From: Bacteroidota bacterium
Lineage (GTDB): Bacteria; Bacteroidota; Ignavibacteria; Ignavibacteriales; Ignavibacteriaceae
Assembly: GCA_022562275.1 (NCBI GenBank)
Contig: JADFPP010000001.1
Coordinates: 62,001-126,000 of the forward strand
Reading direction: 5' to 3'
DNA length: 64,000 nt
A program made the translations under genes and the position numbers. Positions 18,408 through 30,846 of this stretch are shown here, one piece after another. The notes under the pieces are model-generated. The model saw nothing but the letters and a program-made list of their open reading frames with translations, did no database searches and was not told the DNA's origin. The first letter of the stretch is position 1. Each line of letters opens with the position of its first letter.

Positions 18408-19543
18408 TTGAGTAACGATCGTGCAATTATTATTTTTTGAATTTCTGAAGTACCTTCATAAATTTCTGTTATCTTAGAATCGCGCAGATATCTTTCTACA
18501 AGATATTCCCGTACATAACCATAACCGCCATGTATTTGAATTGCATCCAACGCACATTCAACGGAAATTTTTGAGGCATATAATTTTGCCATCGCTGCTT
18601 CAGAAACATACGACTTACCGGCATCTTTTACGGCTGCAGCTTTGTAGGTTAACATCTTAGCAGCATCAATTTTTACCGCCATGTCCGATATCATAAACTG
18701 AATTGCCTGAAACTTGGCAATCTCCTTACCAAATGCTTTTCTTTCCTGGGCATACTTTATTGAGGCTTCCATCGATGCTTCGGCAATGCCAATTGCTTGT
18801 GATGCAATACCAATTCTTCCACCGTTAAGAGTATTCATTGCAAAGTTGAATCCTTTTCCCTCTTCCCAAACTAAATTTTCAACAGGAACTTTACAGTTAT
18901 CAAACGTAATAGAACAAGTATCGGAACTTCTTATTCCAAGCTTATCTTCTTTAACACCATGCTCGAATCCTTCAGTACCTTTTTCAACCAGGAAAGTTGA
19001 AATGCCTTTATGTGCTTTTTCTTTATCGGTCGTAGCCATTACAAGGTGATAATCGGCACTTTGCCCATTCGAAATCCAATTTTTAATTCCATTCAATATA
19101 TAAAAATCACCATCTTTATCTGCAGTTGTTTTTTGTTTTGTAGCATCACTTCCTGCTTCGGGTTCCGACAGTGCAAAAGAACCTAGTTTCTTTCCCTGAG
19201 CTAAAGGAGTGAGATACTTTTCTTTTATAAAATCAGAACCATAGCTTTCAAGTCCCCAGCAAACAAGTGAATTATTGACTGACATCACTACACCGAGACT
19301 AGCATCAACTTTAGAGATTTCAATCATAGCCAGCACATAACTGATAGTATCCATTCCAGCACCGCCATAGTCGGGTGAAACCATCATTCCCATAAATCCT
19401 AATTCTCCCATTTGCTTTACTATCTCTGCTGGGAACACTGCATTTTTATCTCTCTCAATTGCAGTTGGAGCTATCTCATTTACTGCAAATTCTTTTGCAG
19501 ATTCCTGAATCATTATTTGTTCTTCAGTAAATTCGAAATTCAT
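18404..19543 (-). CDS. Acyl-CoA dehydrogenase
   Basis: FAD enzyme that introduces the alpha-beta double bond in acyl-CoA, cytosolic. All domains are present in 379 residues. FAD/substrate motifs are GSFALSEPEAGSDA and WISNGQSADYHLVMA; the C-terminal part has the QIHGGYGYVREYLVERYLRD block. The catalytic base is Glu363 in TEIYEGTSEIQ, the position used by short/medium-chain (butyryl-type) enzymes. The chain-length preference cannot be fixed. It is the first gene of a tightly packed minus-strand run into the YidD-like cluster, although no functional link is obvious. The intergenic gap to rlmN (19544-19718) must hold divergent promoters. Confidence 0.94.
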   Translation of the reverse strand: MNFEFTEEQIMIQESAKEFAVNEIAPTAIERDKNAVFPAEIVKQMGELGFMGMMVSPDYGGAGMDTISYVLAMIEISKVDASLGVVMSVNNSLVCWGLESYGSDFIKEKYLTPLAQGKKLGSFALSEPEAGSDATKQKTTADKDGDFYILNGIKNWISNGQSADYHLVMATTDKEKAHKGISTFLVEKGTEGFEHGVKEDKLGIRSSDTCSITFDNCKVPVENLVWEEGKGFNFAMNTLNGGRIGIASQAIGIAEASMEASIKYAQERKAFGKEIAKFQAIQFMISDMAVKIDAAKMLTYKAAAVKDAGKSYVSEAAMAKLYASKISVECALDAIQIHGGYGYVREYLVERYLRDSKITEIYEGTSEIQKIIIARSLLK

Positions 19544-19718
19544 ATTTTTCCTAGTTAGTTAAATTTAATTCGTTTTCTCAAATTATAAATCAATTATATT
19601 ATTCATCAATGCTAGTAAAAATAGCAGAATAAAAAATCTTTAGCAATGAATCATCTGCATTCCAGGTTACAAATGTTATTAAATTTTATCAAGTTCCTCT
19701 TATTATTATATTTGATGT

Positions 19719-20798
19719 ATGAACACAGAGGTTAAATTAAATGGACAAAAAAAAGTTTCACTAAAAGGTTTCACTCTTAACGAACTGAAAGATTACTTTT
19801 TTTCCATCGGGGAAAATAGATTCAGAGGGGAACAAGTATTTATTTGGTTTTATAAACATCTTATCGATTCTTATGACGAAATGAAGAATATTCCAAAAAA
19901 TTTACAAGTGCAGCTTTCTGAATCAACCGTGAGTATTAACACGCTGAAACTCATTTCTACAATGTCATCAAAAGAAACGGGTACTACAAAATATCTGTTT
20001 GAAACAAAAGATGGTTATAAGATTGAATCGGTAGTAATTCCGGAAGTAAAGAGAACTACCCTGTGTATATCCACCCAGGTTGGCTGTCCGCTGGATTGTA
20101 AATTCTGTGCTACAGGTTTAATGGGTTATTCTAAAAACCTATCTGCAGGAGAAATTTTTGATCAATACAAATTAGCAGCGAAGGAGTATACCAAAAGCAA
20201 CATCAAAAATATTGTTTATATGGGAATGGGTGAACCTCTCTTAAATTATGATGAAACACTAAAGTCGCTTAAAATTTTTGCAGAGGATCTGATACCCGAG
20301 TTAAGTTTAAAACGTATTATAGTTTCAACTGTTGGTATTGCTCCCAAGATAATTGAATTGGCTAATTCAGGACTGAGAGTTAAACTTGCATTTTCACTCC
20401 ATTCTTGTTTTGAAGACATTCGTTCTAAACTAATACCAATTAACAAAAAATATTCACTGAGAGAAAATCTGGACGCGATTCGATATTATACAAAGAAGAC
20501 TCAAACAAAAATTACATTTGAATACCTTATGCTAAGCGGCATAAATGACCGCAAGGAAGATCTGCGAGAATTGGTAAAGCTATGCAATTCATTACCATCC
20601 AAAATAAATGTTATACCGTTTAACTCTCTCGATCATATGAATCCAGGTGGGTTCAGTGCAGAATTACAGCCCTCTTCTAAGAAACGAATTTATGAATTCG
20701 TTAATGCATTAAAAGACCAAAATATAAATGTACGCGTACGACACACAACAGGTGAGGATATTGCAGCTGCCTGTGGTCAGTTAGCTATTCCTCAATGA
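19719..20798 (+). CDS. rlmN: 23S rRNA (adenine2503-C2)/tRNA methyltransferase RlmN
   Basis: Radical-SAM enzyme methylating C2 of A2503 in 23S rRNA and A37 in some tRNAs. The cluster motif is CPLDCKFC (Cys123, 127, 130). The methyl-carrying cysteine is near the C-terminus, Cys352 in DIAAACGQL, and Cys116 is in TLCISTQVG. The substrate-lobe text MGMGEPLLNYDETL and the IPFNSLDHMNPGG block are intact. Length 359 is normal. A TATATTTG sequence at 19707-19714 ends 4 bases before the ATG and matches the TAnnTTTG -7 box used in Bacteroidota; if real, this mRNA would be almost leaderless. It is followed by a SpoU methyltransferase and recQ on the same strand. Confidence 0.97.
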   Translation: MNTEVKLNGQKKVSLKGFTLNELKDYFFSIGENRFRGEQVFIWFYKHLIDSYDEMKNIPKNLQVQLSESTVSINTLKLISTMSSKETGTTKYLFETKDGYKIESVVIPEVKRTTLCISTQVGCPLDCKFCATGLMGYSKNLSAGEIFDQYKLAAKEYTKSNIKNIVYMGMGEPLLNYDETLKSLKIFAEDLIPELSLKRIIVSTVGIAPKIIELANSGLRVKLAFSLHSCFEDIRSKLIPINKKYSLRENLDAIRYYTKKTQTKITFEYLMLSGINDRKEDLRELVKLCNSLPSKINVIPFNSLDHMNPGGFSAELQPSSKKRIYEFVNALKDQNINVRVRHTTGEDIAAACGQLAIPQ

Positions 20799-20822
20799 GA
20801 TTCAGACAAAAGTTAATGTATA

Positions 20823-20935
20823 GTCATTGCGAGGAGTAAAACAACAGCTTGCCCCGATTTTTCGGGGAAGCAATCTTGTTATTATATTAATGTAATTGAG
20901 ATTCTTTCGCTGCGCTCAGAATGACCGTAATTTTA
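20823..20935. repeat. Dispersed intergenic repeat with hairpin
   Basis: Holds CATTGCGAGGAG..., a CCCCGA-TTTT-TCGGGG hairpin (20852-20867) and GAAGCAATCTT, then GATTCTTTCGCTGCGCTCAGAATGAC. I know these phrases as generic intergenic repeats of many genomes. The downstream gene's frame can be extended into this repeat from a TTG at 20896, but that extension encodes repeat sequence and is not credible. Confidence 0.5.
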
Positions 20936-20964
20936 TTAAGAAAGAACAATTGCAAAGTGATTCA

Positions 20965-21513
20965 ATGAAAAAACTTACTCACGATCAAGTTTCTAAAAAC
21001 AGAAGTACATTAGATACATTGCATAAAGTTAAACGATTACCTGTTTACGTTATTTTGAATAGCATCAGAAGTAATTACAATGTCGGTTCAATATTCAGAA
21101 CATCAGATGGCGCAATGATCGAAAAGCTATACCTTTGCGGGTATACACCGCATCCCCCCAAAAAGGAAATTATGAAAACTGCTTTGGGTGCAACTGAAAG
21201 TGTGAATTGGGAATATGTTGAAGATCCAAAAGAAGTAATTCTACTTCTAAAAAAGAAAGGAGTTAAAGTAGCGGCGCTTGAACTGACGGACAATAGTTTT
21301 CCACATTATAAATTAAAAGCGGATACATTCCCATTAGCATTGATTATCGGCAATGAAATTACAGGTGTATCGCAGGAATTACTTGATCTATGTGATTTTT
21401 CAATTGAAATTCCACAGTATGGAGTAAAGCAATCACTTAACGTTGCTGTGGCTTACGGCATAACGGTTTTTGAGTTGAGGAAAATTTATGATATTGGAAA
21501 TATTTCAAATTAA
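20965..21513 (+). CDS. SpoU-family (TrmH/RlmB-like) RNA 2'-O-methyltransferase
   Basis: SPOUT-fold enzyme transferring a methyl group from SAM to a ribose 2'-OH of tRNA or rRNA. The three family motifs are visible: SIRSNYNVGSIFRTSDG (motif 1), FPLALIIGNEITGVSQELLDLCDFSIEIPQYG (motif 2) and QSLNVAVAYGITVFEL (motif 3). From the chosen ATG the protein has 182 residues, a single catalytic domain without an N-terminal RNA-binding extension. The ATG at 20965 is preferred over the TTG at 20896 because the extra 23 residues come from an intergenic repeat. Target nucleotide not predictable. A decayed copy of its 3' end lies behind recQ at 23016-23060. Confidence 0.9.
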   Translation: MKKLTHDQVSKNRSTLDTLHKVKRLPVYVILNSIRSNYNVGSIFRTSDGAMIEKLYLCGYTPHPPKKEIMKTALGATESVNWEYVEDPKEVILLLKKKGVKVAALELTDNSFPHYKLKADTFPLALIIGNEITGVSQELLDLCDFSIEIPQYGVKQSLNVAVAYGITVFELRKIYDIGNISN

Positions 21514-21519
21514 TAAAAG

Positions 21520-22974
21520 ATGCCGGATCCCAAACAAATTCTAAAAAAGTATTTTAATTTTACATCCTTTAAAGGCAATCAAGAGCAGATAATAAACAGG
21601 CTGATATCTTCAAATGGTCATTGTATTGTTTTAATGCCGACTGGTGGTGGGAAATCACTATGTTACCAAATTCCTGCTTTAATTTTTGAAGGTGGAACTA
21701 TAGTTATCAGCCCGTTAATAGCTTTGATGCAGGATCAGGTAGATACACTTAAGAAGAAAAACATACCTGCGGATTTTATAAATTCAACAGTACCACCGGA
21801 AAAGAGAAAGATAGTACTAAATAATTTTGTTAGAGGTAAAGTAAAACTTTTATATGTAACCCCGGAGAGATTCAGGAAGAAAGAGTTCATTCAACAAATC
21901 ACAAAAGCGACCATATCATTGCTGGCAGTTGATGAAGCACATTGTATTTCTGAGTGGGGACATGACTTCAGACCAGATTATTCAAGAATTGCTGAATTTC
22001 GAGAGTTATTAAAAAACCCTCTTACTGTTGCACTCACAGCAACTGCAACACCCGATGTACAAATCAATATTATTAATAAACTAGGGATTAATGAAAACGA
22101 GATAGAAATATTTCACCAGGGTATACAAAGACCAAACCTGCGATTGGAAACTTCTGATGTGATTGATGAGAAGGAAACGCTGCAAGAAATTTACAGCGTG
22201 CTTGAAAAATATGATGGATCGGGAATAATCTATTTCTCTCTTATAAAAAAACTCGAAAAATTCTCACAAATATTAAATGATAAAGGCTATCGGCACGGAG
22301 TATATCACGGAAAGCTGGAACCTAAAATAAGAAAGCAAACCCAGAGAATGTTTCTTTCGGGCAAACAGAATTTAATTTTAGCCACTAATGCTTTTGGGAT
22401 GGGAATTGATAAACCTGATATTCGTTTTGTGATTCATGCTGAAGTCCCATCATCTATAGAATCTTATTACCAGGAAATTGGAAGAGCGGGAAGAGATGGT
22501 AAAGATTCATTGTGTATGCTGCTTTATAATCAGGAAGATCTTTACACGCAAATGGAATTTATTAAGTGGGCTAACCCGAATGCAGATTATTATTCGGGAA
22601 TTTATAATATGCTTAATGCAAATATTGAACAGGTAAACTCATTAGGTATTAACTATCTAAGGGAATATATGAGTTTTAAAGACAAAAACGATTTCAGGGT
22701 AGAAACAGTTTTAGCAATACTTGACCGTTATGGTGTAACAGAAGGATCTATTGAAAACAGAAATTTAGAATTAGTCGCTGAGCTGCCACAGGAACTTGAA
22801 GATGATGCGAGATTAGAAGATAAATTATTAAGAGATAATAAAAAACTTTTATCAGTTGTAAACTATTTTAATTCAGATACTTGCAGAAGAACATTTATAT
22901 CGGATTATTTTGGTTTTCCGGATGAACCGCCTTGCGGTAATTGTGATATTTGTGATCAGGGAAGTCAATCCTAA
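21520..22974 (+). CDS. recQ: RecQ-family ATP-dependent DNA helicase (short form)
   Basis: 3'-5' helicase acting on forks and recombination intermediates. The Walker A motif is PTGGGKSLCYQIPAL (40-54); the DEAH box is VDEAHCISEWGHDFRPDY. Motif III LTATATPD and motif VI YYQEIGRAGRDG are intact. After the helicase core there is a zinc-binding domain with C-x-RR...CGNCDIC near the C-terminus. The protein has only 484 residues: the winged-helix part is short and the HRDC domain is absent, in contrast to the ~600-residue E. coli type. It starts 6 bases after the SpoU gene. Confidence 0.94.
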   Translation: MPDPKQILKKYFNFTSFKGNQEQIINRLISSNGHCIVLMPTGGGKSLCYQIPALIFEGGTIVISPLIALMQDQVDTLKKKNIPADFINSTVPPEKRKIVLNNFVRGKVKLLYVTPERFRKKEFIQQITKATISLLAVDEAHCISEWGHDFRPDYSRIAEFRELLKNPLTVALTATATPDVQINIINKLGINENEIEIFHQGIQRPNLRLETSDVIDEKETLQEIYSVLEKYDGSGIIYFSLIKKLEKFSQILNDKGYRHGVYHGKLEPKIRKQTQRMFLSGKQNLILATNAFGMGIDKPDIRFVIHAEVPSSIESYYQEIGRAGRDGKDSLCMLLYNQEDLYTQMEFIKWANPNADYYSGIYNMLNANIEQVNSLGINYLREYMSFKDKNDFRVETVLAILDRYGVTEGSIENRNLELVAELPQELEDDARLEDKLLRDNKKLLSVVNYFNSDTCRRTFISDYFGFPDEPPCGNCDICDQGSQS

Positions 22975-23015
22975 TAATTTTGCACACAATTATAAAATAC
23001 AGATATTATTATGTG

Positions 23016-23060
23016 GTGGTTTTCGGCATAACTGTTTTTGAGTTGGAAAATTTTAAATGA
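23016..23060 (+). pseudogene. Remnant of a second SpoU methyltransferase gene (3' end only)
   Basis: Forty of about 44 bases match 21448-21490, the 3' end of the SpoU gene. Translated it reads VVFGITVFELENFK-stop beside VAYGITVFELRKIYD in the intact gene. It lies 41 bases behind recQ, so recQ is bracketed by the SpoU gene and this fragment. It is non-functional by length. Confidence 0.65.
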
Positions 23061-23161
23061 GGGAAATGAAGAATTATAATACTGCAATGCTATTTTACCA
23101 ACTTTGCAGCTTAACGGAAGAAATCAAAATTGTGGGAGAGTGATAATAACTCAATATTAAT

Positions 23162-23203
23162 AAACCGTTGTCCGAAGGACTCCCACGGAGAAACGGTTGT
23201 TAT
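23162..23203 (+). repeat. REP-like element beside transposase copy 2 (upstream)
   Basis: Outer arms AACCGTT (23163-23169) and AACGGTT (23192-23198), then GTTAT. Inside is a small hairpin GTCC-GAA-GGAC. A second element with the same outer arms and an analogous small inner hairpin (GCC-GA-GGC) closes the transposase gene at 23902-23940. The remaining non-coding sequence of 22975-23466 holds only this, the SpoU remnant and the palindromes listed next. Confidence 0.65.
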
Positions 23204-23365
23204 ATTTAGGTTCGTTATTTCTCTGCCTGTGGGCTGCTTTCTTTGTAATATATTTATTAACAATTATGGAGTTCGCGGTTTGTTTACCAACACCTAAAAT
23301 TGTGTGTGCTCTGTTTATAATTGGGTTATCTTAACATTGTCTAATAATATTAAAAAACGAAAGAC

Positions 23366-23454
23366 AGCCCATAGCTTCAGCTATGGGGATAATAAACACA
23401 TCCAATAAATTAATTAAGTGTTTCTCCCGAAGGGATGCCTTCGGCAAACGGTTT
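23366..23454 (+). repeat. Palindromes in the leader of transposase copy 2
   Basis: CCCATAGC-TTCA-GCTATGGG (23368-23387) is a perfect 8-bp stem and is the intact form of the palindrome that is interrupted at 24090-24217. Then TCCC-GAA-GGGA (23425-23435), GCC-TTC-GGC (23437-23445) and AAACGGTTT (23446-23454) follow, ending directly at the AAAGGAGG ribosome binding site of the transposase gene. Confidence 0.6.
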
Positions 23455-23466
23455 AAAGGAGGCATT

Positions 23467-23928
23467 ATGGCACACTCACTAGTGAAAGTATGGATACACG
23501 CAATATTCGCCACAAAAGACAGAACCTCACTAATTAAAGATACATTTGAAGCACAATTACATACACACATAAAAGAAAAATTAGAAAGAGAACTTGACTG
23601 CAAAGTAAGAATAATCAATGGAACAGAAGACCATATTCATGTATTATTTTTATTATCACCAAATTCCACTTTGAAAGATATTTTTCAAAATATTAAAGGA
23701 GAATCCTCACATTGGATTAACCAATCCGATTTTATGAATTATAAATTTGCATGGCAGACAGGGTACGGTGCTTTTTCCGTAAGTGAATCAATGTTAAAGA
23801 GGGTTGAAAAATATATAGCCAATCAGAAAGAGCATCATAAAAAGATGACATACCAGGAAGAAGTTGATTTGTTCATTAAAAAATATGGGCTTAAAATTAT
23901 AAACCGTTACGCCGAGGCACACAGGTAA
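23467..23928 (+). CDS. IS200-like/REP-associated tyrosine transposase (RAYT type), copy 2
   Basis: Y1 HUH transposase of the same family as the gene at 13378 but clearly different in sequence. HUH motif DHIHVLFLL (His56, His58), catalytic Tyr116 in KYIANQKEHHKK, plus KFAWQTGYGAFSVS. Length 153, intact. The start at 23467 is chosen because AAAGGAGG stands 4 bases upstream; an earlier in-frame ATG at 23383 would translate the REP palindromes. The last codons (NRYAEAHR) are encoded by a REP-like element, so the gene end and the repeat are one sequence. No tnpB gene is present. Confidence 0.88.
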   Translation: MAHSLVKVWIHAIFATKDRTSLIKDTFEAQLHTHIKEKLERELDCKVRIINGTEDHIHVLFLLSPNSTLKDIFQNIKGESSHWINQSDFMNYKFAWQTGYGAFSVSESMLKRVEKYIANQKEHHKKMTYQEEVDLFIKKYGLKIINRYAEAHR

Positions 23929-24010
23929 AACGGTTGTTATGCCTTGTCTATTCTTTTTTGCCCACGGTTAAAACCGTGGGTTAATGTGATTTCTTTATTT
24001 TCACATAACC
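23902..24010 (+). repeat. REP-like element and palindrome following transposase copy 2
   Basis: AACCGTT (23902-23908) pairs with AACGGTT (23929-23935), spanning the transposase stop. CCCACGGTT-AA-AACCGTGGG (23961-23980) follows, then TTAATGTGATTTCTTTATTTTCACATAACC. The last part recurs 200 bases on (24161-24210), where it is the right half of the inserted element. The rest of 23929-24247 is covered by that element and the interrupted palindrome. Confidence 0.65.
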
Positions 24011-24094
24011 TCTAAAACCGTGGGCTGCATTATGATATTTACGGCTTAACCGAGGATTTAGATTGTTAAGGAAATGAGTAAGCCATAGCTTCAG

Positions 24095-24212
24095 AGCCTG
24101 TGTGAATATTGTAAAAACCGTTGAAACGGTTAACAACATAGTTTACTTTTTACACAAATACCCACGATTGAAATCGTGGGTTAATGTCATTTCTTTATTT
24201 TCACACAGCCTT
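24095..24212. mobile_element. 118-bp MITE/REP-like insertion inside a palindrome
   Basis: Ends are AGCCTGTGTGAA (24095-24106) and TTCACACAGCCT (24200-24211), imperfect terminal inverted repeats (11 of 12 bases). It carries two palindromes: AACCGTT-GA-AACGGTT (24116-24131) and CCCACGATT-GA-AATCGTGGG (24161-24180). It is flanked by TTCAG on both sides (24090-24094 and 24213-24217), and the intact palindrome at 23368-23387 shows a single TTCAG at the same point. This indicates insertion with a 5-bp target duplication. It contains no ORF and is presumably mobilised in trans. Confidence 0.7.
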
Positions 24213-24247
24213 TTCAGCTATGGGGAATAATGAAATATTTATATAAA

Positions 24248-24904
24248 CTAAGCAGCAGCAGTAAAAAATTCTTCCCCGTTATCTTTTGTATGAATTAAAA
24301 GAAGATTTGCCCTTATCATTTTTACCAAAGTTCTTGACGCTTTTCTATCTGAAATATTAACAAGCGTACCTAATTCTTTTACTGAGATTTTTTCTTTTAT
24401 CGTTAAATATTCAAAAACTTTTTTTTCTATTGGTCCTATTGAATATTTCTTCAATGATAAATTCCCCGCATTAGCTCTTAATATTCTTACCATCTCTTTG
24501 CTTGCTTTCAAACTTTTATCATTTACTCTTATCATTACAACTGCTTTTGTTATATCAAACTCGTTTTCGTAATCCTGTAAACGGTGTGGTTTATTAATTG
24601 ATTCGGGGATAGTAACTGCTACAATTTCTTTCCCATTATGAACGATGTAATTAATCTTATAATCAAATAGTGGTTCGCAATAATTTTTAACTGCATCTTT
24701 AATCATTTCTGCTTCCGATTTCTCACTTTCGACCCCTACAATTGTTTTATCATCATCAACACCAAATAGAATATATCCGCCATTGGTATTTGCAAATGCA
24801 ATCATTTCCTTTGCAATTTTTTCAGGTGTAGTAAATTGTCTTTTAAATTCGCATTGAATGTTTTCCCCATCTTCAATCAAACTAATAAGTTCTTTTCTAT
24901 TCAT
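24248..24904 (-). CDS. AlbA_2/Schlafen-like ATP-binding regulator with C-terminal HTH
   Basis: The first ~130 residues form an AlbA_2 (divergent AAA_4/SLFN) domain: EDGENIQCEFKRQF, IAKEMIAFANTNGGYILFGVDDD and a strand VAVTIPESINKPHRL. The C-terminal ~75 residues look like a winged helix: EKKVFEYLTIKEKISVKELGTLVNISDRKASRTLVKMIRANLL. Such proteins are usually described as putative transcriptional regulators; some act in defence or stress. It is a single gene beside the transposase/REP patch. The ligand and targets are unknown. Confidence 0.75.
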   Translation of the reverse strand: MNRKELISLIEDGENIQCEFKRQFTTPEKIAKEMIAFANTNGGYILFGVDDDKTIVGVESEKSEAEMIKDAVKNYCEPLFDYKINYIVHNGKEIVAVTIPESINKPHRLQDYENEFDITKAVVMIRVNDKSLKASKEMVRILRANAGNLSLKKYSIGPIEKKVFEYLTIKEKISVKELGTLVNISDRKASRTLVKMIRANLLLIHTKDNGEEFFTAAA

Positions 24905-24997
24905 GATGATGTGCAGAGATAAAAATCAAGAATTCTTAATATCCCTAATTTATAACTTGTATTATTTTTTGTAGAAAAGCCCAACAGCTATATTAAT

Positions 24998-27400
24998 TTA
25001 TCTTCTCTTTCTCGGATTCCAAAGAGGTTCTTTAATCTTTGGAAGAGTAGATACAGTTTGCTCATCCGGTCTTTTCTCTTTTCCATCTTTCTCCTGATCC
25101 TGCAGTGCAACCTGAGAAGTATCAGATGTACTTGTTTGTAAATACGAATCTGTAAATTGTTTAAGAGAATCAGCCGTCAAGGAATCTTCAGATACAATAT
25201 ACTGTGTATTGAGCGAATCCTTTTTTGCCAACTGTAGTTTTCTTTGTTCTTGTTTGTACGCAGATAGCTTTAAGCCGACATTTTTTACATAAATTGTTGT
25301 AGGATAATACACAACTAAAGTATCGTAATAAAAAACTGCCGAATCGGGAAGAGATAATTTATTTTCAAGTATCCACCCGGAAGCGTACAGGGCTTTCGGT
25401 GCATATTGTGATTCAGGGTAAGTTTTATAAATATCATAGAATTTTTCAATTGCATCACTATAATTTTCGTTTAACATTATACTTTCCGCATTATCAAAGC
25501 TCGGTTTAGCCGGGTCATAGTTTAAATCAATAAGCGGCTTATTTAATTTATCTGCTGCAGCATTTACAATACTTTCATCCCGGTAATCTTCATAAATTAC
25601 ATTGAATAAACTATCTGCCCGTTGTTTATTATCCTGGGTTAGATAATAGCTTCCTAATGCATAGAGAGTGTTTGCTTCGTATCTTGTATTAGGATAATTA
25701 TTTAGTATATTATAATAATACCACCTGGAAGAATCAGGAATCTCAAGCTCCGTAAGAAATAAATTCCCAAGCTCTAATTCATTCATTGCCAACAGTACCC
25801 GTAACGAATCGTTTGAAATTGTAGACCACCTTGGTGGATTATTTTTGAATCGCAGTGAATCAGGAACCTTGTTTGCTAATTGTTGTTGTTGAGTTCTCTG
25901 CTGTTGTGATTGGTTTTTGCGAATTTTTCTTATTCTCTCAAAAGCTTCTGATTTAAACACACTATCGAAACTGGATACAAAGCGTAAATCAAATGGGTCC
26001 GGATTACGCAGCTTTGTTAATAATGTATCTCTAACAAGAGTAGTGTCTCTAACAATTAAAGTATCGATGGCGCGAATTGTATCAGCGAAAAAACCAACGG
26101 TATCCTGCAGGCTTATTAACGAATCCAATTCCGCCCATATTGCTTGTAGTTCTACGATATTTGATATCTCTTCTGCTATTGCAAGAGAATCTTCAACATA
26201 TAAAACTGAATCCTGTATAAACTCATCCGGATTCTCATTGTAAAATAATTGCTTGCCAAAATTTGATACTTTATTACTGATTTTAAAATACCGTATAAAA
26301 AGATTGTTCTTTTCTCTGGCAGGTAAAATATATTCTTTTGGTACTGATGATGAGGCGGCTTTTTTATAATAATTAGCTGCTGTATCCAGTTGCAGGTACT
26401 CATATTCATAAATTTGTCCTAATTCAAATTTACTGGCACCGGAAGTTTTTGTGCCTTTATAAGTAGTATCAACAATAGCAAATAAACTCACTGCGTTTTC
26501 AATATCACCCATTGAACGATTTGTTTTTGCAATTTCAAAATCAATTTCAGCAAATTCCTTAGTATATTTATTTTCCTTACGCATATCTTCAAAAACCTCT
26601 AATGCATCTTCGTTTCTATTGCCTTCACGTAATGCTATTCCATAATGCAATTTAGCATTAAACTCCAGGTCAAAATCCGGCGAATACTCAAATACATTTT
26701 CATATGCGGTAATTGCGTTTTCTACATCACCGATCAGGATATTCAGCTTTCCAATTTCGAACCAAACCTGAGCTTTAATTGCATCATCATCTGATACTTC
26801 CATAAATTCATTAGCAGCGGTAATGGCAGCCGGATAATCCTCAACCGTAATTTTATATACAATCTCTTCTATATATGCTTCCCTAACAATATCGTCTTCG
26901 CCTTTATCAACCGCCTCATTTTTAACGCCTGCTAATGTAGTAAGAGCCTCATTATAATTTTTAAGTCTCATTTGGTTTTTGCCAATCCATAACTGTGCTT
27001 CGAGCAGCAGATTGCTTTCGGGATAGGATCTCTGTAGTTCAGTAAATTTTCTGGACGATTTTTGATAATTTTTTTGATAATAAAATGATTTGCCCAGCAT
27101 TAATAAAGCATCTTCAACATATGCACTTTCAGAACTGAACTGCAATATATCCGATAATTTATCAATTACTTTTACAAGATCTGCTTTTGCGGTACTCGGG
27201 ATGTTAGGTGGTTCCGTAGAAAAAAGATCCTTTTCCTGTTTATTTATTTGCTTCTCAGCCTTGTCAAACAGATCACTGGCATTATAATAAGTGTTAAAAT
27301 AGGTGGTGAAATTTTCCCACACTCCACAACCGGGAATCAATAATGCCCATATAAATAAGAAGAGCAGAGTTTTGATTTTAATTTGAATAGATAAATTCAT
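24998..27400 (-). CDS. TPR outer-membrane lipoprotein, PorW/SprE-like
   Basis: Probable accessory lipoprotein of the type IX secretion system. The signal peptide ends in a lipobox LIPGC (lipidated Cys ~25). The first mature residues include ENFTTYFNTYYNASDLFDKAEKQI, an opening that resembles PorW/SprE proteins. Many tetratricopeptide-like repeats follow, between about residues 90 and 370 and again at 560-700 (for example YPNTRYEANTLYALGSYYL and YPESQYAPKALYASGWIL). The middle (400-530) is charged and Gln-rich, and the tail is basic with Pro. Length 800 matches that group. The PorW/SprE assignment is by layout, supported by a T9SS cargo protein at 42796; another TPR lipoprotein role is possible. 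Confidence 0.65.
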   Translation of the reverse strand: MNLSIQIKIKTLLFLFIWALLIPGCGVWENFTTYFNTYYNASDLFDKAEKQINKQEKDLFSTEPPNIPSTAKADLVKVIDKLSDILQFSSESAYVEDALLMLGKSFYYQKNYQKSSRKFTELQRSYPESNLLLEAQLWIGKNQMRLKNYNEALTTLAGVKNEAVDKGEDDIVREAYIEEIVYKITVEDYPAAITAANEFMEVSDDDAIKAQVWFEIGKLNILIGDVENAITAYENVFEYSPDFDLEFNAKLHYGIALREGNRNEDALEVFEDMRKENKYTKEFAEIDFEIAKTNRSMGDIENAVSLFAIVDTTYKGTKTSGASKFELGQIYEYEYLQLDTAANYYKKAASSSVPKEYILPAREKNNLFIRYFKISNKVSNFGKQLFYNENPDEFIQDSVLYVEDSLAIAEEISNIVELQAIWAELDSLISLQDTVGFFADTIRAIDTLIVRDTTLVRDTLLTKLRNPDPFDLRFVSSFDSVFKSEAFERIRKIRKNQSQQQRTQQQQLANKVPDSLRFKNNPPRWSTISNDSLRVLLAMNELELGNLFLTELEIPDSSRWYYYNILNNYPNTRYEANTLYALGSYYLTQDNKQRADSLFNVIYEDYRDESIVNAAADKLNKPLIDLNYDPAKPSFDNAESIMLNENYSDAIEKFYDIYKTYPESQYAPKALYASGWILENKLSLPDSAVFYYDTLVVYYPTTIYVKNVGLKLSAYKQEQRKLQLAKKDSLNTQYIVSEDSLTADSLKQFTDSYLQTSTSDTSQVALQDQEKDGKEKRPDEQTVSTLPKIKEPLWNPRKRR

Positions 27401-27445
27401 ACAGGAAGCTAAAAAAGAAAATAAAAAAGTAAAAGGTAATTCAGA

Positions 27446-30846
<3,401 letters not shown>

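Follow-up and report, generated by a model that had tools for sequence, protein, structure and literature searches.

How a palindrome that stands intact on one side of a transposase gene came to be split on the other side by a short gene-less insert, and which enzyme placed the insert there, is the question raised by this locus. The window, by which we mean the whole stretch of 64,000 nucleotides that was analysed, carries a recQ-like gene at 21520-22974 and an AlbA/SLFN-domain gene at 24248-24904 on the minus strand, with a Y1 transposase gene between them. The palindrome CCCATAGCTTCAGCTATGGG lies upstream of the Y1 gene and recurs downstream of it, at 24083-24224, interrupted by the insert; an earlier note on this DNA had pointed out both the intact copy at 23368-23387 and the split one, and both are present in the sequence. 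The features of the locus are as follows.

23368-23387: intact target palindrome CCCATAGCTTCAGCTATGGG, upstream of the Y1 gene
23467-23928, plus strand: Y1 transposase gene of IS200/IS605 type (PF01797, 88.3 bits; NF033573 above its cut-off)
23961-24012: what is left of a second, truncated MITE copy, with its inner palindrome and right end, recognised by sequence match just downstream of the Y1 gene
24013-24024: TAAAACCGTGGG, presumably the right half of the palindrome that this second copy targeted, from its sequence and the target form of the family
24083-24089: left arm of the split target palindrome, from the sequence
24090-24093: left copy of the target duplication TTCA, which is the palindrome loop, placed by family comparison
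24094-24212: gene-less MITE copy of 119 bp, with ends and length as in other copies
24094-24109, plus strand: left terminal inverted repeat, from comparison of the end pattern
24116-24131: inner palindrome A, AACCGTTGAAACGGTT
24161-24180: inner palindrome B, CCCACGATTGAAATCGTGGG
24197-24212, minus strand: right terminal inverted repeat, from comparison of the end pattern
24213-24216: right copy of the target duplication TTCA, placed by family comparison
24217-24223: right arm of the split target palindrome, from the sequence

Because G follows TTCA in the intact palindrome and the first base of the insert is also G, the letters can be read literally as TTCAG, 118 bases and TTCAG, and this was the reading of the earlier note. 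Copies elsewhere start with GAG, mostly finish with CTC and are flanked by duplications of 4 bp, so the insert is 24094-24212, 119 bp rather than 118, and the duplicated target is TTCA. Its inverted ends, GAGCCTGTGTGAATAT and ATTTTCACACAGCCTT, are near-perfect as had been claimed, with a final base T where most copies have C. Folding of the MITE strand gives -27.6 kcal/mol (z -6.0), a value that none of 200 shuffles equalled, and an Rfam search over 19000-28000 gave no match.

Judged by its sequence, the insert belongs to a MITE family with copies in its own genome and in Ignavibacteriales relatives, and the search for further copies that had been proposed as a check turned up the same ends in both. 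Forty-two places in the own genome match the MITE, about 11 of them long, down to 73% identity, and the end pattern occurs at 51 places there versus 11 for the reversed control. Searched in 59 genomes including the own, MITE copies gave some match in 24, in many of these to inner palindromes alone, and exact MITE ends were found in 34, with few matches for the reversed control. Many copies are exactly 119 bp long, and others with the same ends measure 141, 161, 215 or 257 bp. Duplications were counted in 33 paired-end copies from the own genome and relatives, a set that left out L005 (adjoining masked N), copies with more than one end mismatch (e.g. L068 and L072) and lengths outside 90-300 bp, and that kept L009 (106 bp, with other ends) and L073, both of which count against. 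An exact 4-bp duplication was found in 26 of the 33 copies, with a cross-copy expectation of 8.0%, and is absent from the other seven; at 3 bp there were 0/33. With just 1/33 at exactly 5 bp, the duplication of that length proposed earlier was rejected. The tetranucleotides duplicated at different sites include TTTA, TTAA, TTCA, TAAA and TGCA. The family thus shows the general features of MITEs, being short, without a transposase gene, bounded by terminal inverted repeats that are paired in the fold and across copies, and present in several copies at different sites with target duplications (26/33). The placing of a MITE-like unit into a palindrome with target duplication, as the earlier note had it, is borne out by the same-ended copies and by palindromes found both empty and occupied.

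The empty sites seen are paralogous, with one genome per species. The AlbA/SLFN gene has matches in five of five congeners, from which no orthologous empty site of the window copy was obtained; the DNA examined beside it in the five contains no Y1-palindrome block and no palindrome within 5 mismatches of CCATAGCTTCAGCTATGG. Four of the five (G002-G005) have a TrmH-like gene near the AlbA/SLFN gene, as does the window. From this comparison the Y1-palindrome block appears to be a later addition at the window locus, and there is no sign that the split state of the palindrome came first. In the remnant at 23961-24012 the inner palindrome, CCCACGGTTAAAACCGTGGG, matches the neighbouring half-palindrome, as if both had recombined.

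The position of the insert at the palindrome centre is a habit of the family. The arms, taken as the 8 bases on each side of the duplication, are complementary at at least 6 of 8 positions in 20 of the 33 copies and below 6/8 in 13, while cross-copy pairing of flanks gives this score in 11.9% and a shift of one arm by one base in 0/33. None of 20,000 flank permutations reached the observed duplication count or arm score for all 33 copies, and the result was the same (0/20,000) for the 18 own-genome copies and for 21 copies with different targets, 16 of which have an exact duplication; a chance origin of duplications and symmetry is therefore rejected. Among random TNNA sites, 1.5% of 24,829 reach an arm score of 6/8. 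In 91 distinct ends among the collected loci, position -12 is C in 91% and position -11 in 75%; 59 of the 91 have TNNA as the duplicated tetranucleotide, versus 9.6% at random. Together with the palindromic arms, these base preferences point to a target of roughly CC-N6-TNNA-N6-GG, with insertion at its exact middle. The stems of the targets vary, with CCCACGAC (in the palindrome CCCACGAC-TTAA-GTCGTGGG), CCACGCCC, CCCCGACT, CCATAGC and others, and this variation of letters with kept symmetry would favour recognition of symmetry or of a hairpin over recognition of letters.

As to the mover, the earlier note had guessed at a DDE-type transposase and advised looking for a transposase gene with ends of this type. 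PF13751 transposase matches were collected in relatives and the element borders then inspected, which gave four IS1182 elements of 1566-1729 bp, in four genomes, with the MITE ends (L110, L125, L132 and L134). Exact 4-bp duplications within palindromes flank L125 (TGAA), L132 (TTTA, in an imperfect palindrome) and L134 (AAAA); L110 runs into the end of its contig. On NF033551, with a cut-off of 270 bits, the L110 transposase scores 396.6 bits and that of L125 359.4. A scan of named genomes gave 80 IS1182 loci, 46 of them with usable ends and 34 that lacked motif-paired ends or met a contig end; the exact 4-bp duplication is present in 32 of the 46 and absent in 14. Two of these IS1182 copies, L143 and L144, sit in CCCACGACTTAAGTCGTGGG, a palindrome that is also occupied in the genome of the window. 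Among Bacillota and Alphaproteobacteria, poor arms or a different symmetry are frequent. We also worked outward from the ends, in 20 of more than 150 end matches picked from four genomes with lone ends, of which 10 were short contig-end pieces. The one clear case is a contig-end copy in G021 (L250), which joins the end sequence to an IS1182 C-terminus that is 86% identical to L132 over 49 residues; other lone ends mostly run off their contigs at once, as is usual for repeated elements, and their flanks are half-palindromes of the form CC...TNNA. In G021 and G008 (L246, L248-L252, L254-L257) many contigs break off some 100-120 bases into a same-ended element, each following a different CC...TNNA half-palindrome, and these pieces are probably multi-copy IS1182 elements that break the assembly.

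The proposal of a DDE-type mover is supported by the relatives, where IS1182-family transposases with these ends exist; in the own assembly no IS1182 gene was found (PF13751, 0 matches; none for the L110 protein at E<=1e-20; none for NF033551). The element has what marks an IS1182-family MITE, namely ends in common with L110, L125, L132 and L134 and the same 4-bp duplication in palindrome centres, and no partner transposase was found in the own genome, a 148-contig assembly from which a repeated IS may be missing. Since no IS1182 gene is detectable there, we infer from the relatives that an IS1182 transposase moved the window copy. The best explanation, to which we assign a probability of about 0.8, is that the MITE was moved in trans by an IS1182-family DDE transposase through a loop-duplicating insertion at the palindrome centre. 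Such a transposase would recognise ends of the type GAGRCTGTGTGAAAAT and would join them to the two strands flanking the 4-nt centre, or loop, of a roughly 20-bp CC-N6-TNNA-N6-GG palindrome, whereupon repair would duplicate the loop alone and leave both arms outside the element. The hairpin-loop habit of the copies and of their full-length relatives suggests a mechanism in which hairpins are located by their symmetry and nothing but the loop is duplicated; the palindrome may accordingly be read by its symmetry or as an extruded hairpin, not by its letters.

A DDE transposase of another family (e.g. IS5-like) with similar ends might move the MITE instead. This alternative draws on the lack of a detected IS1182 gene in the own genome and on the nature of the MITE-IS link, which is about 16 bases of end sequence with no internal sequence; moreover, the IS1182 elements came from a search aimed at IS1182, which made it a weak test of other transposase families bearing these ends. 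We nevertheless regard it as unlikely, given that four IS1182 elements in four genomes bear the ends, three of them with the same palindrome-centred 4-bp insertion, and that the transposase piece of L250, a region not chosen for its transposase, is also IS1182.

Much less credible is that the neighbouring Y1 (HUH) transposase moved the unit, as RAYTs supposedly move REPs and REPINs, the ends and the duplication being incidental. The Y1 gene does adjoin the MITE, and palindromes flank this and other Y1 genes of the genome. The protein has the Y1 domain (PF01797, 88.3 bits) that a RAYT requires; it falls far under the cut-off of the RAYT model (NF047646, 25.7 bits against 80) and passes the IS200 model, and the abundant flanking palindrome of a RAYT is missing, there being one intact copy (at <=2 mismatches) and the split one. 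Terminal inverted repeats and exact 4-bp duplications in 26/33 copies also argue against a Y1 mover, since IS200/IS605 elements, in the account of PMC2817692, have neither inverted repeats nor duplications, and other MITE copies are not tied to Y1 genes. The target palindrome was also considered as a genome-wide REP and rejected: a genome search at <=2 mismatches gave one perfect intact copy, others being poor, and the only two close copies, one intact and one split, lie one on each side of the Y1 gene. Because three other Y1 genes of the own genome (L225, L233 and L235) each have a matching palindrome on both sides, the intact palindrome and its split counterpart are best read as the flanks of a Y1 element, one of which was invaded by a second mobile element. 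The own-genome Y1 genes L225, L226, L232, L233, L235 and L237 adjoin 20-bp palindromes whose sequence is particular to each gene, and several of these palindromes resemble MITE targets seen elsewhere (stems CCGTCTGC, CCACGCCA and CCAACGGA).

That the split palindrome arose without transposition, by slippage or recombination between palindromes, is barely tenable. Palindromes are unstable, the own-genome copy L009 has the look of a recombinant of inner and outer palindromes, and a truncated remnant lies at 23961-24012, but the constant ends and the 4-bp duplication recur at different targets in different genomes.

The palindromes that the IS1182-type MITE carries were seen by the earlier note as two REP-like palindromes within the insert; both are there, as inherited parts of the element family. 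In a nearly gap-free alignment of fifteen copies of 119-120 bp, inner palindrome A is kept throughout (94.3% of cells paired) and inner palindrome B is kept with changes on both sides in six of its nine pairs (92.6% of cells paired). Over the whole MITE structure there are 32 double-change cells versus 15.1 in shuffles (0 of 500 as high), counts that are inflated by relatedness, one block of five similar congener copies supplying most. Exchange of whole palindromes would explain the pair changes as well as many compensatory steps, and is on these alignments as good a reading.

Some palindromes of these elements are themselves occupied. In the copies L097 and L100 of the congener G002, another MITE, with ends of CTGTTGC type, is centred in the inner palindrome CACCGGAA-TTTA-TTCCGGTG and flanked by TTTA and apparently TAAA, and L094 in the same genome is the empty form; the nesting of L097 was read from its sequence, the alignment being partly clean. 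The palindrome CCCACGACTTAAGTCGTGGG, of which the own genome has eight intact copies and about seven occupied by the IS1182-type MITE, forms the central palindrome in another MITE, whose ends are CTCAAGTTGACC. Among 22 rows of this second MITE, a few of which are chance pairs, seven show an exact 8-bp duplication and seven contain the IS1182-type MITE. It is 156-203 bp long when empty, with AT-rich 8-bp duplications (L016 1409-1591, L035, L037, L064, L223 and others), bears three palindromes in the order A-B-A, of the same kinds as in the IS1182-type MITE, and in its copy L223 interrupts a Y1 gene. With MITEs inside the palindromes of other MITEs, element-borne palindromes are landing sites, two or three layers deep. 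We tentatively suggest a fuller mechanism, which is possible though rather doubtful as a whole: a clade of IS1182 transposases would measure an extruded hairpin with a CC/GG base, a stem of 8 bp and a loop of 4 nt and would cut at both edges of the loop, giving the loop-only duplication that had been sketched as a mere possibility for IS1272, while MITE-borne palindromes serving as landing sites, and landing in the palindromes of other MITEs and of Y1 elements, would create new targets with spread and build up layered, nested palindromes.

Insertion into palindromes is known from this family. IS1272 and TnSha1, IS1182-family elements of staphylococci, are described as inserting into inverted repeats with removal of part or all of the stem-loop and no duplication (PMC5678879, PMC4923244), and reviews are cited there for some IS1182 members that target palindromes. 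They resemble the window system in the transposase family and in inverted-repeat targets of no fixed sequence (PMC5678879, PMC4923244). They differ in that the hairpin is removed, whereas both arms are kept here and the 4-nt loop is duplicated, and hairpin replacement of the IS1272 kind was rejected for this reason; in PMC5678879 loop duplication is sketched as a possible pathway only. According to PMC1525189, REPs are targets for IS3, IS110, IS4, IS256 and IS5 members, and ISPsy8 and ISRm22 insert, as here, at the REP symmetry axis with a short direct repeat (3 bp and 6 bp, respectively); those elements, as described there, are full IS of other families than IS1182, not MITEs, and their target stems follow one REP consensus, whereas the stems vary here. 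The REPs beside RAYTs (PMC2817692, PMC3733652) likewise lie on both sides of Y1 transposase genes, as does the pair of palindromes to which the present target belongs. Here, however, the hallmarks of the inserted unit are those of DDE elements, the target palindrome is found only twice in the genome and the Y1 protein is below the RAYT cut-off. The MITEs RUP and Correia are also short, gene-less, inverted-ended and moved in trans (PMC2817692, PMC3733652); these sources give them as IS630-derived, whereas the ends of the window MITE are of IS1182 type, its landing sites are palindrome centres and it has palindromes of its own. No account of IS1182-type MITEs in REP loops was found in an open-licence library of papers, which is weak evidence of absence. 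The IS1182 family and its taste for palindromes are already known, and what looks new is the loop duplication, the measured target and the landing sites on board.

What was a general statement on the preference of some IS1182 elements for palindromes thereby becomes a precise putative rule (CC-N6-TNNA-N6-GG, exact centre, loop duplicated), and three kinds of mobile palindrome that are usually treated apart, Y1-adjacent palindromes, MITEs and DDE insertion sequences, are linked. REP-like sequences might multiply without RAYTs, as passengers of DDE MITEs, and spread of this kind would be gentle because an insertion into the loop of an intergenic hairpin leaves the genes intact.

Smaller units vary among the copies as well. 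Tiny palindromes of 20-22 bp (CCGAAGGNNTCCYTTCGG type) show clean presence or absence, without duplication, in otherwise matching element copies (L026 1558-1814 versus L063 476-636 and L072; L007 and L010 versus L001; window 23161-23199 and 23427-23455), and a genome search matches this type 31 times forward and 24 times in reverse, versus 0 for the reversed control. In copies of the 161-bp type, an insert of 30-54 bp (AGATCTGTC...GACGAGG) takes the place of part of a palindrome (L065 452-666, L026, the 257-bp copy in L002, and L072).
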